This document shows positions 34,162 through 41,429 of a stretch of DNA of 41,429 nucleotides, piece after piece. The stretch spans positions 1-41,429 of the forward strand of contig QKHC01000014.1 in assembly GCA_003251175.1 (NCBI GenBank), in the 5' to 3' direction. The position numbers and the translations under genes are program-made. This DNA is from Gemmatimonadota bacterium. GTDB taxonomy: Bacteria > Gemmatimonadota > Gemmatimonadetes > Gemmatimonadales > GWC2-71-9. The notes beneath the pieces were generated by a model. The model worked only from the letters and a program-made list of their open reading frames with translations. It ran no database searches and was not told the origin of the DNA. The stretch's first letter is position 1; each line of letters starts with the position of its first letter.

Positions 34162-36150
34162 ATGACCCCTGTTCGAACCCCAGCTGCCAGCCGGTGGCGC
34201 TTCATATCGCTCGTCACCCTCCTCGCCGCTGCCGGCGTGCAGGCCGCGGCGCAGGCGCCGCGTATCACGCCGGCCGGTGATCCGTCCGTCGATCCGGATA
34301 CGATCTACCACCTCGCCGTCGACCCGGCCGAGCACACCGGGGAGGACTTCGTGTACCTCCTCGATGACGGTGTGCTGCGGTTCGAGGCGGACGGGCGTGG
34401 CAGTCGCACGTATCGCCAGATCGTCCAGATCCTGACCAAGGACGGCGCCGAGCGCTGGGGCGAGCAGACCTTCGGCTACACGGCGGATCGGGAGTCGCTC
34501 ACCGTCAACTGGATCCGGGTGCTGCGCACCGACGGCACCGTGGTGGCCGAAGGGCCGACCCATGAGCAGGAATCGCTGGCCCCGGTGGCACTCGAGGCGC
34601 CGGTGTACTCCGACAGCCGCATCCGGCGTGTGACGATCGGGGGCATCGAGCCCGGCACGCTGCTCGACTTCAGCTGGACCACGGTGCAGTTCAAGCCGGT
34701 GCTCGCGGGGGACTTCTATTCCGGGTGGCGGGTGACAACCGGGCGCCTGGTGCGCCGCTCCCGCTTCATCGTGGACGTTCCCGAGCTGCTGACGCCGCGG
34801 ATCAAGGAGGAAAACTGGCGCGCGCCGCGGGACATCACCACGCGCGGCGGGCGCCGCACCTACGTGTGGGCCACCCAGGATGTGCCGCCGGTGGATGGTG
34901 AACCGTACGCCGCCGTGCCGAACGACGTGTACGTCGGCATCACGGTGGCCGGCCGCATCGGGTGGAACGATATCGCGCGGTGGTACTCGGGGCTGTCGCG
35001 GGATCGCTACGCGCTCACGCCGGAGCTCGAGCAGCAGCTGACCCGTGTCGTGGCTGGTGCAGCTACGCTCGAGGACTCGCTGCGAGCCGTACACCGCTGG
35101 GTGGCGCAGGACTTCCGTTACGTTTCCCTGTCGCTCGGCATCGGTGGCTACCAGCCACGCACCCCGGCCGCCGTCCTGCAGACGCGCTATGGCGACTGCA
35201 AGGACAAGGCGACGTTGTTCATCGCCCTGGCCCGGCGTCTCGGCGTCCGCGCCTATCCGGTGCTGCTGTCGGGTACCGGCGGCGTTGACCGCGAGCTGCC
35301 GTCGATCCTGCAGTTCAACCACATGATCGCCGCGGTGGCCCGTCCCGACGGGGGCTATCGCTACGTCGACCTCACCTCGGAGCTGACGCCGTGGGGCGAG
35401 CTGCCCCCGTCCGAGCAGGGCGAGTTTGCCCTGGTCGTGCGCGAGGGCGGGACGGGGGAAGAGGTCACGCTGCCGCTCGATTCGGCCACGACCAACCGCA
35501 CGGAGATCCGCATCGAGGGTGAGCTGTCTCCCGAGGGTGTGTTCGCCGGCCGGTACAGCGAGACGCGGACGGGCACGGAGCAGTATGCGCTGCGCGGAGC
35601 GTTCAACCGGGAGTTCACGGCGAGCGAGCGTCAGCAGCTCGCACGGGCGGTGGCAAACAGCGTCTACGAGGGCGCGCAGGGGGACAGCGTGGCGGTGTTC
35701 AACGGGCGTGACCTGACGGCGACGCCGCGCATCGCCGTCTCGCTGCGCACGACGCGGGCGGTGCAGAGCGCCGGCGGGACTCATATCCTCACGTTACCGC
35801 TGCGCGAATATGCCTCCCCGGGTCTGGTCGCCGACCTCGAGAGCCGGGGGCCACGCCGCTATCCCATCGATGTGGCGGCGGTGATCGGGCCGGTCGAGGA
35901 GATCTCGGAGTTTCGCCTGCGCCTTCCCGAGGGGTGGCGCGCGCGGCTCCCGCAGGGCATCGCGGCGTCCAGTGAGTTCGGCGCGTACACCTCGGAGTAT
36001 CGGCAGGAGGGTCGGGAGCTGCTGGTGACGCGCCGCATGGTCGGGCGCCGCGGCACCCAGCCGCCCGACCGTATCGACGCGCTGGTGGCCTGGTTGCGCG
36101 CGGTCGCCCGGGACGACGTCAAGTACCTCGTCTTGGAGGCGCCGAACTGA
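34162..36150 (+). CDS. DUF3857 and transglutaminase-like domain protein, exported
   Basis: A 662-residue protein. A signal peptide (hydrophobic FISLVTLLAAAGVQAAAQA) precedes a DUF3857 region (about residues 60-250). A transglutaminase-like domain (about 280-410) follows with a complete triad: C346 in YGDCKDKATLF, H387 in LQFNHMIAAV and D403 in YRYVDLTSE. The C-terminal 250 residues are beta-rich without a recognised motif. Such proteins are common in the FCB group and are thought to be periplasmic peptidase- or transferase-like enzymes, but no substrate is known. It is 16 nt from recO. Confidence 0.88.
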   Translation: MTPVRTPAASRWRFISLVTLLAAAGVQAAAQAPRITPAGDPSVDPDTIYHLAVDPAEHTGEDFVYLLDDGVLRFEADGRGSRTYRQIVQILTKDGAERWGEQTFGYTADRESLTVNWIRVLRTDGTVVAEGPTHEQESLAPVALEAPVYSDSRIRRVTIGGIEPGTLLDFSWTTVQFKPVLAGDFYSGWRVTTGRLVRRSRFIVDVPELLTPRIKEENWRAPRDITTRGGRRTYVWATQDVPPVDGEPYAAVPNDVYVGITVAGRIGWNDIARWYSGLSRDRYALTPELEQQLTRVVAGAATLEDSLRAVHRWVAQDFRYVSLSLGIGGYQPRTPAAVLQTRYGDCKDKATLFIALARRLGVRAYPVLLSGTGGVDRELPSILQFNHMIAAVARPDGGYRYVDLTSELTPWGELPPSEQGEFALVVREGGTGEEVTLPLDSATTNRTEIRIEGELSPEGVFAGRYSETRTGTEQYALRGAFNREFTASERQQLARAVANSVYEGAQGDSVAVFNGRDLTATPRIAVSLRTTRAVQSAGGTHILTLPLREYASPGLVADLESRGPRRYPIDVAAVIGPVEEISEFRLRLPEGWRARLPQGIAASSEFGAYTSEYRQEGRELLVTRRMVGRRGTQPPDRIDALVAWLRAVARDDVKYLVLEAPN

Positions 36151-36165: not shown

Positions 36166-36936
36166 GTGGCCCCCGTCACCACTCCCGCCGTCGTGCTGCA
36201 GGCCTGGCGATACAGCGAGACGTCCAAGATCGTGCGGCTGGCCACGCGGGATCTCGGCGTCCAGAGCGCCATCGCCAAGGGCGCGCTGCGACCGCGCAGC
36301 CGTTTCGGAGCGGGGCTGGAGTGGCTCAGCGAGGGTGTCGCGCATCTCTATCACCGCGAGTCGCGTGACCTCCAGGTCCTCGGCGCGTTCGATCTCATCG
36401 ATCTGCGTCGGGGGCTCGCGCGCGACGTCGCCCGCTGTGCCGGTGCCGCTGCCATCGCCGAGATCGTGCTGCGGATGGCGCCTGCCGCGCCGTTGCCGGG
36501 AGCTTACGACGCGCTCACTACAGGGCTGACCTCCCTCGTGACGGCTCCCGCCGCCGACGTGGATGCAGCCGCGCTGCGCGCCGCCTGGTGCGTGCTCGGC
36601 GCACTGGGGTTCGAGCCGTCCCTGGCCCGGTGCGCGCGTGACGGAACGCCGCTCGAGCCCGATCCGGCTCGCAGCGTACCATTCTCGATCGCCGAGGGCG
36701 GGGTGTTGTGCCCGCGCTGCGCCGCGGCGCGAGGCGTGATCCGCCTGCCCCCGACTGCCTACCGCGATCTGCGCGCGCTGGTCGACCCGGCGCACCCATT
36801 GCCCACCCTTGACGCCGCCCACGCCGCGGCGCATCGCCGACTCATCGCCCGCTTCGTCCGCCACCACTACGGTGAGGCGGGCGCCCTCCATGCGCTCGAC
36901 TTCTGGACCAGGCGCTCATGGGACGCCGCGTCGTAG
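36166..36936 (+). CDS. recO: DNA repair protein RecO
   Basis: A 256-residue RecO, which loads RecA onto SSB-coated DNA in the RecFOR pathway. The N-terminal OB fold carries [20 protein letters not shown] and [16 protein letters not shown]. The C-terminal zinc site reads CARDGTPLE and later GGVLCPRC, so one of the four usual Cys is an Asp; many RecO proteins vary here. GTG 36166 is the likely start. The last 19 nt overlap selB. Confidence 0.92.
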
Positions 36937-38822
36937 TCGGCACTGCCGGCCACATTGACCACGGCAAGACGGCGCTGGTACGCGCGCTCACCGGCATCGA
37001 CACGGATCGCTGGGAGGAGGAAAAGCGGCGCGGGATCACGATCGACCTGGGCTTCGCACCGTTCGCCGTGGGTGAGGACATCACGGCGAGCATCGTGGAT
37101 GTGCCCGGTCACGAGGGATTCGTCCGCAACATGGTGGCGGGAGCGACGGGCATCGACGTGGCGCTGCTCGTGGTGGCGGCCGACGAGGGCACCATGCCGC
37201 AGACCGAGGAACACCTGGCGATCCTCGAGCTCCTCGGTGTACGCCACGGCGTGCCCGTGCTGGCGAAGGCGGATCTCGTGGAGCGGGAGTGGCTCGATCT
37301 CGTCCGGGCTGAGCTGACGACGCGGCTGACGGCGAGCCGGGTGCACTGGGAGGCGCCGGTCGTGTGCTCGGCGGTCACGGGGCAGGGGCTCGACGAGGTA
37401 CGTAGCGCGGTGCGCCGCATCGCCCGGAATCTCGAGCAGCGCGCGGAAGTCGATCTGTATCGGCTACCCATCGATCGGGCGTTCGCCGTGGCCGGAGCCG
37501 GGACCGTGGTGACGGGCACCACCTGGTCCGGGACGCTCTCGGTCGGCGAGGCGGTGCAGCTCCTCCCCGCCGGCCGCGATGCGCGCGTCCGCTCGATTGA
37601 AGCACACGGCGCGGCGACGGACCGGGCCCTGCCCGGCCGCCGCACCGCCCTCGCGCTGGTCGGTGTGCGACGGGAGGAGATTACGCGCGGCGATGTGGCG
37701 GTAACCGGTGACGGATGGCGCGCCACCACACGTCTGGAAGCGGACATCGAGCTGCTGCCGGGCGCCCCGCGCCCCCTGGCGCACCGCACGCGCGTGCGGG
37801 TCCACCTGGGCACGGCGGAAGTGCTGGCACGGGTCGTCATGGCGCGGCCGCTCGAGCCGGGCGGGCGCAGCCTCGCCCGCCTCGCGCTCGAGCGACCGCT
37901 GGTGGCCCGGGGAGGGGATCGGTTCGTCCTGCGCAGCTTCTCCCCGGTCACCACCATCGGAGGCGGGATCGTGACTGATCCGTTCCCCCGCTGGACCCCG
38001 GGTCGGGCGGCGATCGCGCTGGGCGGGCTGTCGCCGGCGGAGCGCGTCCGCGCGTGGATCGATGCCGCGGGACTGCTCGGGGTCGACACGCGCTCGCTGC
38101 CGGTGCGCCTAGGCGTCACCCCCGGCCAGGTCCCCGGGGTGCTCGCCGCCCTGGGGCAGGGCGTCCTCACGACGGGGGAGCTCGTGGTGGCGCGGGCCGC
38201 AGTGGTGGCGGAGGGACAGCGCCTGGCGACACTGGTGGACGCCCATCATGCGGGTCACCCCCTGGAACCGGGCATGTCGCGGCAGGCGCTGCGCGCGACC
38301 GTAGGGACGGCGGGCGCAGGGGAGGGGGTGCCTGCGACGGTCGCGGACCTGGCGCTGGATCTGGCGGTACGCAAGCGGCTGCTGGTGGCCGAGGGGGCGG
38401 TGGTGCGACGCCCCGATTTCGCGGTCGCCGTCGTGGGCGCCGTGGCGGACCAGCGCGAGCGGCTGGCTCGGCGGCTGGGGGACGCCGGCTGGGAGGTGCC
38501 CACGATTGCCGAGCTGATGCGGGAATTCCCCGACGCGCCCGTGCGGGCGCTGCTGGCGAACCTCGCGCGGGAGGGACGGGTAGAACAGATGGATCCCGAG
38601 CGGTATGCCGATCCCGAGGGACTGCGCCGGTTTCGCGCCGCCCTCACCGAGACCCTCGCGGAGCTGGTGCGTGCGACTCCGGCGCAGTTACGAGCGCGTT
38701 TCGGATTGACACGGAAGTATCTGATTCCGCTGCTGGAATGGGCGGATCGACGGGGACTGACACGCCGCGATGGAGACGCGAGAACCCTGGTGCGCTTGAC
38801 GGACCCGCGTGGCGCCACTTAG
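36918..38822 (+). CDS. selB: Selenocysteine-specific translation elongation factor
   Basis: A 634-residue GTPase that brings Sec-tRNA to UGA codons with a SECIS element. G motifs are [40 protein letters not shown] and AKADL. EF-Tu-like domains 2 and 3 follow, then winged-helix repeats (about residues 380-634) ending in [20 protein letters not shown], which bind SECIS RNA. The C-terminal winged helices separate SelB from EF-Tu. ATG 36918 lies inside recO. No selA, selD or tRNA-Sec is in the window, and no selenoprotein gene was recognised. Confidence 0.95.
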
Positions 38823-38825: not shown

Positions 38826-38912
38826 CCGAAGGCGGCGTGCGCGTCGCACTCGTTTCGCACCAACTGTCACAAGGAGAGCGGTCCGAGGAACCTTTATCGT
38901 TCGAGGCTTCAG

Positions 38913-39350
38913 ATGAAGCGGTTCGCCTGGGTGGTGTTGGGGTTGGGGCTCGGGCTATGGGCGGTTGGGGTACGGACGTCGTGGGGTCAAGGCAGTCAGC
39001 CCCCGCCGGCGGTGGATTTGCGGCAGAATTACCCGAACCCCTTCAATCCGGCGACGACGATCCCGTTCCGCCTCAGCGCGGACGTGTTCGAAAATGGTCA
39101 CCGGCCGAAGGTTACGCTGAAGGTGTACAACGTGCTGGCGCAGCTCGTCGCGGTCCCGATTCTCCAGGGGTCCGGCGAGCCGCTGGAGAGCGTGGAGTTG
39201 GCGTGCGCCAATCCCGCGGGGTGCGAGTATGCCGCCTACTGGGACGGCAAGATCCTCAATACCGGGAAAGAGGCGGCGTCGGGCGTGTACATCTACCAGC
39301 TCGTGGTGGACGGACGGCGGTTCACGCGCAAGATGATCGTGATGAAGTAG
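38913..39350 (+). CDS. Small exported protein made almost only of a Por/T9SS-like C-terminal sorting domain
   Basis: A 145-residue protein. A signal peptide ([20 protein letters not shown]) leads straight into [19 protein letters not shown], the hallmark start of the Por-secretion (T9SS type A) or FlgD-Ig-like C-terminal domain. It ends [20 protein letters not shown], the normal last strands of that domain. The pair of Cys in [11 protein letters not shown] could form a disulphide. There is no room for a separate cargo domain. GAGG at 38903-38906 lies 6 nt before ATG 38913. A strong terminator follows, so it is a single-gene unit. Role unknown. Confidence 0.82.
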
Positions 39351-39380
39351 CCGCGTCCGCTGCCGTCACGCGGTCGAACG

Positions 39381-39414
39381 AAGGCGCCGGGGATCCGTAT
39401 CCCCGGCGCCTTTT
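39381..39414 (+). terminator. Intrinsic terminator, 14-bp perfect stem
   Basis: AAGGCGCCGGGGAT (39381-39394) pairs perfectly with ATCCCCGGCGCCTT (39399-39412) around a CCGT loop, and the T-run TTTT covers 39411-39414. It separates the sorting-domain gene from clpB and may work in both directions because of the A residues at its 5' side. It is the only classic terminator seen in the window. Confidence 0.9.
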
Positions 39415-39425
39415 GACGTCCTTCC

Positions 39426-39451
39426 TGCCGAAACGGCACCTTTTTTCGGTA
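39426..39451 (+). promoter_or_regulatory. U-rich hairpin upstream of clpB
   Basis: TGCCGAAA (39426-39433) can pair with TTTCGGTA (39444-39451), 8 bp with one G-U pair and a 10-nt loop. It ends 26 nt before the clpB ATG. It could be a second weak terminator, part of the clpB leader, or chance. No clear clpB promoter was found: TTGACG at 39413 has no matching -10. Confidence 0.3.
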
Positions 39452-39477
39452 TGCGAGTTGCCCCAGGACAGGTCACC

Positions 39478-41429
<1,952 letters not shown>

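Follow-up and report, generated by a model that had tools for sequence, protein, structure and literature searches.

A conserved stand-alone type A sorting domain in Gemmatimonadota whose gene and NYPNPF motif track SprA

The locus

The DNA analysed here, termed the window, is a single stretch of 41,429 nucleotides from a member of the Gemmatimonadales. Close to its 3' end lies a short gene for a protein that consists of a presumed signal peptide and a C-terminal domain (CTD) of the T9SS type. The features of the locus and the basis of each are as follows.

36918..38822, + strand: selB homologue, conserved upstream neighbour (ORF list; neighbour survey)
38869..38880, + strand: upstream half of a promoter-like element, ACAAGGAGAGCG, with its GGAG core at 38873-38876 (PWM)
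38897..38906, + strand: downstream half of the element, TCGTTCGAGG, consensus T[CT]GT[CT][AC]G (PWM)
38913..39350, + strand: stand-alone type A CTD protein of 145 aa (ORF with ATG start and TAG stop; family matches)
38913..38987, + strand: putative signal peptide, residues 1-25, with SPI-like cleavage before Gln26 (predicted from the sequence)
39003..39347, + strand: Ig-like CTD, residues 31-145 (AlphaFold2 model; VIA rows PorU CTD and PorZ CTD)
39027..39050, + strand: NYPNPFNP motif, residues 39-46 (translation and orthologue alignment)
39204..39224, + strand: codons of Cys98 (39204-39206) and Cys104 (39222-39224) (co-occurrence of Cys in orthologues; putative bond)
39380..39413, + strand: intrinsic terminator hairpin, then T-rich sequence (folding)
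39451..41429, running past the contig end, + strand: clpB homologue, frequent downstream neighbour (ORF list; neighbour survey)

The frames at 36918-38822 and 39451-41429 were named from sequence knowledge, and we take them to be selB and clpB, respectively. This arrangement is conserved. Three families of the order yielded 76 stand-alone loci with open frames of up to 219 aa. Of these, 75 have SelB or RecO on the same strand upstream and 72 have ClpB downstream, with an extra gene intervening in some. The gap to the upstream gene ranges from 75 to 617 nt (median 114, n=76) and is never shorter than 75 nt. SelB or RecO is also the upstream neighbour in 31 of 32 loci from other families of the class, and ClpB was not seen downstream in these 32 loci. 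A homologue of the window ORF 34162-36150 was noted downstream, on the opposite strand, in three loci (L118, L120 and L123).

The terminator hairpin has a stem of 15 bp, and the 54-nt stretch containing it folds with -35.1 kcal/mol (z -5.8), which agrees with the strong terminator described in an earlier note on this DNA; the hairpin at 39380-39413 was not listed by a pattern scan. Terminator-like hairpins were found 3' of 54 of the 76 orthologues; among 76 shuffled controls there were 9. An RNA element in the leader or terminator was considered and set aside, as the two Rfam matches were weak and far under the gathering scores.

A presumed signal peptide and a single CTD

The protein scored 22.6 bits with TIGR04183 and 22.2 bits with PF18962, just below the curated cut-offs of 23 and 27, respectively, and the TIGR04183 cut-off is passed by some orthologues (for example, 27.5 bits for the copy in G051). 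With these families it shares the fold, the NYPNP-type start, the WDG and GVY motifs and a Lys close to the C-terminal end (column K140; 84% of 75 orthologues); it differs from them in having no passenger, in forming its own clade and in scoring just under the cut-offs. The layout is a presumed signal peptide, a linker of a few residues and one CTD. About five residues separate the presumed SPI site before Gln26 from residue 31, leaving no passenger ahead of the CTD, and the stand-alone orthologues have the same layout without a passenger domain. The analysis confirmed that ORF 38913-39350 encodes a presumed signal peptide and a single T9SS type A CTD without cargo, as the earlier note had proposed.

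An SPI-like site was found by pattern match in 113 of 119 family members, and Gln occupies the Gln26 column in 89% of 75 orthologues. By eye, the two neighbouring exported proteins encoded from 32112 and 34162 also have a Gln after the presumed SPI site. The 'Q-rule' known from Bacteroidetes may extend here, and the excerpt of PMC5837995 available to us makes no mention of Gemmatimonad-.

An AlphaFold2 model built with 56 orthologues had a mean pLDDT of 89.3, with values mostly of 97-98 in the domain, and contains an Ig-like beta sandwich as in solved CTDs. In the VIA comparison, row 1 was the PorU CTD (Z 9.9, 99 residues, 3.1 A, 21% identity, model residues 30-145) and row 10 the PorZ CTD (Z 8.8, 19% identity, model residues 31-145). 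The rows are mostly generic Ig folds and several tie with row 1; by VIA's own rule the PorU CTD is level with unrelated Ig-type rows of Z 9.2 and 9.1. Foldseek returned nothing for the model at E<=0.001, and no T9SS CTD was among its best 50 matches. The CTD assignment is carried by the sequence match and not by the structure.

The earlier note had also pointed out a Cys pair, and Cys98 and Cys104 are indeed present. Among 75 full-length orthologues, exactly two Cys occur after residue 25 in 57, none in 15 and another number in three. Cys98 is kept in 59 of 75 and acts as the fixed partner, the second Cys moving between columns 104 (15), 58 (25), 59 (17) and 56 (2). Because Cys residues co-occur pairwise across the orthologues, the Cys98-Cys104 pair is likely a disulfide.

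Distribution, selection and phylogeny of the family

At E<=1e-3 the family was matched in 82 of the 101 genomes of the order. In five the match lies only in long frames; the other 77 (window included) have a stand-alone copy, so that the stand-alone domains which the earlier note proposed to seek in relatives do exist. In a draw of 298 genomes from the phylum, in which at most 13 candidates were scored per genome, the family profile had a match at E<=1e-8 in 229. Among them are six genomes of f11, a family outside the class, with many matches each (9 to 13 of the 13 scored); the matching genomes other than these nearly always carry one family match. One f11 genome, G101 (L293, L300), contained 33 CTD matches, nearly all in long frames. 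A small number of stop-to-stop frames are long, such as that of 548 aa in G285, which overlaps the SelB match there. Among the best 80 matches in named GTDB contigs, one is clearly stand-alone, from Gemmatimonadales and beside SelB, another is a short frame cut by the contig end, and the rest lie in frames of at least 263 aa.

A tree of 131 CTDs was calculated from 101 columns, with 88 cargo CTDs, namely those among 93 loci whose match was C-terminal and whose frame had 170 aa or more. In this tree, in which most other forks are unresolved and long-branch warnings occurred among the cargo rows, one clade (SH-aLRT 96) unites 41 of the 43 family members apart from the cargo CTDs. The two members outside the main clade both come from one distant family (f8), and a tree holding all 43 members together was not rejected (p-AU 0.96). 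Pairs from SprA-positive genomes that differ in the protein gave dN/dS values of 0.07-0.38. The window ORF is a copy of an old, mostly single-copy and vertically inherited stand-alone CTD family of the class. A broken copy, split into two frames (L149:4038-4253 and just upstream), was observed in the SprA-positive genome G039; it is perhaps an assembly error (the genome is in ~600 contigs).

T9SS genes in the order

The order has a T9SS. SprA was found in 80 of the 101 order genomes (75 above the cut-off) and PorV-family matches in 84 (68 above the cut-off). A lineage-specific SprA profile, which gave 1989 bits with its positive control, found no SprA in the 21 negative genomes. SprA was likewise not found in the window's own genome, which is 56% complete; that genome has a PorV-family gene (G000:C104:2401-3255) of 105.5 bits against a cut-off of 90 that covers the PorV/PorQ family as a whole. 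The check for porU and sov that the earlier note had suggested thus gave SprA in 80 of the 101 order genomes. On the PorU side, PF01364 (PorU C25) matched none of the 101 genomes and none of the control genomes either, and NF033707 matched in 20 of 101, in every case at the C-terminal tail of the profile and never above the cut-off. A CTD protein of ~1300 aa near SprA was considered as PorU and rejected, since Pfam and NCBIfam matched its tail only in the two copies scanned.

TIGR04183 matched in 33 of the 101 genomes and missed the window's own genome. The search of that genome with PF18962 returned nothing, not even ORF 38913-39350, so this HMM is too strict for a cargo census. Likely CTD cargo includes an S8 subtilase and an M14 carboxypeptidase (L200:3346-6141 and L201:4846-7626), whose tails match the T9SS type weakly. 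In L195, L197, L199 and L303-L319 the ~1300 aa CTD protein belongs to a conserved cluster, together with a PorV-family barrel and a protein of ~1100 aa that looks by eye like an outer-membrane barrel; the cluster and SprA lie on one contig in at least 11 genomes.

The gene and its NYPNPF motif track SprA

Within the order, 69 genomes have both SprA and the gene, 8 have the gene only, 11 have SprA only and 13 have neither (n=101; Fisher p 2e-5, related genomes being counted as independent in this and the following Fisher test). The 24 gene-negative genomes were searched for the ClpB neighbour. In the 11 that are SprA-positive, ClpB was not found or, in G018, the contig begins at ClpB; those lacking ClpB had no match, or matches of at most 60% identity that were taken as other Clp ATPases. 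These 11 genomes are undecided because ClpB is missing or at the contig start. Two SprA-negative genomes, G022 and G092, were dropped likewise, ClpB being missing or at the contig edge. With these 13 removed, the absence of ClpB being judged by identity, the counts become 69, 8, 0 and 11 (p 2e-9). All 11 order genomes that have ClpB and sequence upstream of it and do not have the gene are therefore SprA-negative. In 10 of these, SelB or RecO ends shortly upstream and leaves too little room for the gene; in G002 neither neighbour was recognised. No credible remnant of the gene was detected at any of the 11 loci.

The class shows the same tendency, with exceptions both ways. In the class draw of 292 genomes, from which the six f11 genomes were excluded, 188 have both, 35 the gene only, 20 SprA only and 49 neither. 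Five of the 20 (among 208 SprA-positive genomes) have an assembly gap. In a renewed search of twelve others, in which every candidate was scored, no stand-alone match appeared (G241 had one match in a long frame); gap status was settled for the five, and the other 15 (these 12 and three more) may have a gap.

On a ClpB tree of 92 rows, without G018 (contig edge) and six genomes with too little ClpB, 6 changes were counted for the gene and 18 for SprA. Across independent pairs on supported (starred) branches the gene never changed opposite to SprA, and the pairs were too few for the sign tests to reach significance.

The sorting motif follows the same pattern. In a set of 119 fetched genomes, for which SprA-negatives were deliberately sought, N[YF]PNPF is intact in 72 of 87 SprA-positive versus 11 of 32 SprA-negative genomes (p 1e-6), excluding L149 (broken), L186 (cut by the contig end), G315 and cargo or second matches. 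Counted by genus, the ratio of intact to degraded motifs is 52:9 with SprA versus 9:12 without it (p 3e-4). For each of two control fold motifs, the corresponding counts of intact copies are 82 of 87 and 29 of 32. In genus g25 the one SprA-positive genome has NYPNPF and the five SprA-negative genomes have NRSSP, NRSSS or NRSNP. Three further genera with both SprA states (g56, g50 and g76) have an intact motif in both, and g75 has a degraded motif in both. The gene and its motif thus track SprA, in keeping with the link to the Por/T9SS system that the earlier note had drawn.

The gene is also kept in lineages that lack SprA, with dN/dS values of 0.11-0.27 in g25, 0.13-0.24 in g51, 0.12 in g62 and 0.15 in g60; purifying selection is less strict in g92 and family f6 (0.28-0.52). 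SprA is not needed for whatever is selected in these lineages. Since purifying selection is maintained there, the protein has some use without SprA and may also act without the SprA pore; in the SprA-negative lineages it is not only a T9SS modulator.

A promoter-like element, possibly shared with some PorV-family operons

A pattern scan of the gene's upstream region detected no sigma-70 site. The sigma-70 promoter was replaced in the analysis by a conserved bipartite element, (A)AGGAG followed by T[CT]GT[CT][AC]G, that lies upstream of the gene in the order. Its downstream half begins mostly 18-21 nt 5' of the ATG (16 nt in the window), and the element ends 6 nt 5' of the window ATG. The PWM was derived from sites in 73 of 83 order upstreams, L149, L186 and L188-L190 being excluded as fragments or doubtful starts; the sites were chosen via a GGAG...GT pattern, so that the core letters are partly built in. 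The window site scores 23.1.

Using the lower quartile of the gene's own scores as the threshold, a scan of both strands of 1.49 Mb of fetched sequence gave 54 sites at the gene and 12 elsewhere; shuffled sequence gave 6. Of the 12, two are probably the gene again (L149 and L188), and one precedes an operon of the same make-up as the cluster described above (~1100 aa protein, ~1300 aa CTD protein, PorV-family barrel). A score of at least 14 was reached before 4 of 12 such operons versus 0 of 264 other ORF starts, and a score of at least 12 before 5 of 12 versus 4 of 264; one of the four positive operons had prompted the test, so that 3 of 11 are new, and the four come from three genera, with two from one genus. 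The score was below 14 before the other 8 of the 12 operons, and three SprA upstreams had no good element (best score 9.1). The counts are suggestive of an element common to the gene and some PorV-family operons.

Ending in its terminator and likely beginning at a promoter of its own, the gene appears to form a separate transcription unit. The earlier note had claimed its own promoter and a long leader. A promoter is likely in view of the conserved element in the 75-617 nt gap, albeit not one with a sigma-70 site; the long leader is unsupported if the element is the promoter, since the element ends only 6 nt upstream of the ATG. Its interpretation as an ECF-type site (GGAG ... CGTC) was not adopted, the spacing being a few bases too long; that of ECF promoters is a few bases shorter.

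Proposed role and alternatives

Tentatively, and with slightly less than an even chance, we regard the protein as an accessory component of the T9SS that uses its CTD to dock and remains uncleaved. Sec would carry it to the periplasm; the CTD would fold and, in the window copy, close the disulfide, and would then dock in the SprA/PorV cavity as any type A CTD. According to the part of PMC10994853 that was available, a CTD sits within SprA, bound by loops of PorV and by the SprA walls, and its conserved motifs set the fold and not the contacts, the Lys near the end perhaps excepted. As the motifs specify the fold and the CTD is bound inside SprA, a CTD without cargo should be able to dock. Without a passenger, and with no PorU sortase found, the product would keep its CTD uncleaved, either on a PorV-type shuttle or at the cell surface, and it would stay there as in PorU and PorZ, serving as an accessory subunit (occupancy, tethering or signalling) and not as cargo.

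A possible but rather less probable explanation is that this small protein, historically derived from a CTD, has a function of its own in the envelope or at the surface, that it rides the T9SS only where one happens to be present and that it can reach its site without SprA. It would account for the purifying selection that persists in SprA-negative genera, for the retention of the fold motifs where NYPNPF is lost and for the 12 SprA-positive class genomes without a stand-alone match, and passages of PMC7712824 offer two precedents, PorA, which reaches the surface in T9SS mutants, and Fjoh_0547, which is secreted in sprA and porV mutants. Two observations would be unexpected for an independent protein: the 11 genomes that lack the gene at an assembled ClpB locus are all SprA-negative, and motif loss is biased towards SprA-negative genomes. 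Three points, namely the structural tie with generic Ig folds, the 12 SprA-positive negatives and the one operon site that prompted its own test, slightly lower the odds for the accessory reading and slightly raise those for an independent protein.

The accessory protein could be cast more boldly, in a form that we hold to be unlikely, and slightly more so in view of these three points: the T9SS of the class would lack a PorU-type sortase, and the uncleaved CTD would be a near-obligatory lodger of the SprA/PorV site (plug, primer or tether), co-regulated with the PorV operon in some lineages, its NYPNPF motif eroding and the gene then being deleted once SprA is lost.

That the CTD without cargo is a decoy or regulator, filling the SprA/PorV site and tuning secretion or signalling T9SS status, like PorA upstream of PorXY-SigP, seems quite improbable. 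When bound at the SprA/PorV site, a type A CTD does bury nearly 40% of its surface (part of PMC10994853), and the promoter-like element shared with some PorV-family operons would suit such a function, but RecO, SelB and ClpB, the genes conserved next to it, are no sensors, and the gene persists without SprA.

The truncated remnant of a larger cargo gene, which the earlier note had raised beside a competitor or regulator of secretion and a surface protein by itself, is refuted for practical purposes, and a truncated gene or pseudogene is rejected, by order- and class-wide conservation, synteny (31 of 32 other class loci beside SelB or RecO), stand-alone frames at 76 loci, purifying selection and the separate clade; the fetched loci include no syntenic orthologue with a cargo domain upstream, and nothing was found in its favour, the single broken copy being that in G039.

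Relation to known proteins

In passages of PMC7712824, PorU and PorZ of Porphyromonas gingivalis are surface proteins that retain their CTD. They resemble the present protein as VIA rows 1 and 10, tied with generic Ig folds, and differ from it in being large and multidomain, whereas the family described here is a CTD only. Closer in size is Fjoh_0547 of Flavobacterium johnsoniae (112 aa), likened here by its description in the same passages, which likewise has a CTD and hardly any space for cargo. Another small CTD protein tied to the T9SS is, again from PMC7712824 in part, the 246-aa PorA of P. gingivalis; unlike the present family, it has a second, FimH-like N-terminal domain.

A 2016 survey detected the T9SS in Bacteroidetes only (PMC4793230, in the part available), and the available part of a 2024 paper states that a T9SS may be present in Gemmatimonadetes (PMC11285876). 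The literature searched on the T9SS in Gemmatimonadota or Gemmatimonadetes, on sorting-domain proteins and on stand-alone sorting domains contained no description of the family, and that on the T9SS in the phylum no experimental study. As far as this literature shows, the CTD is a known domain and the conserved, pore-linked, free-standing family is new. T9SS research treats the CTD as a cargo label; if a CTD is kept alone as a gene tied to the pore, it can be a part of the machine, and the family offers a small handle for testing the T9SS outside Bacteroidota. A further difference from cargo CTDs lies in the tail, which by eye mostly reads YN[VIL]L[AQVS]Q in the family and LGQ in cargo proteins.
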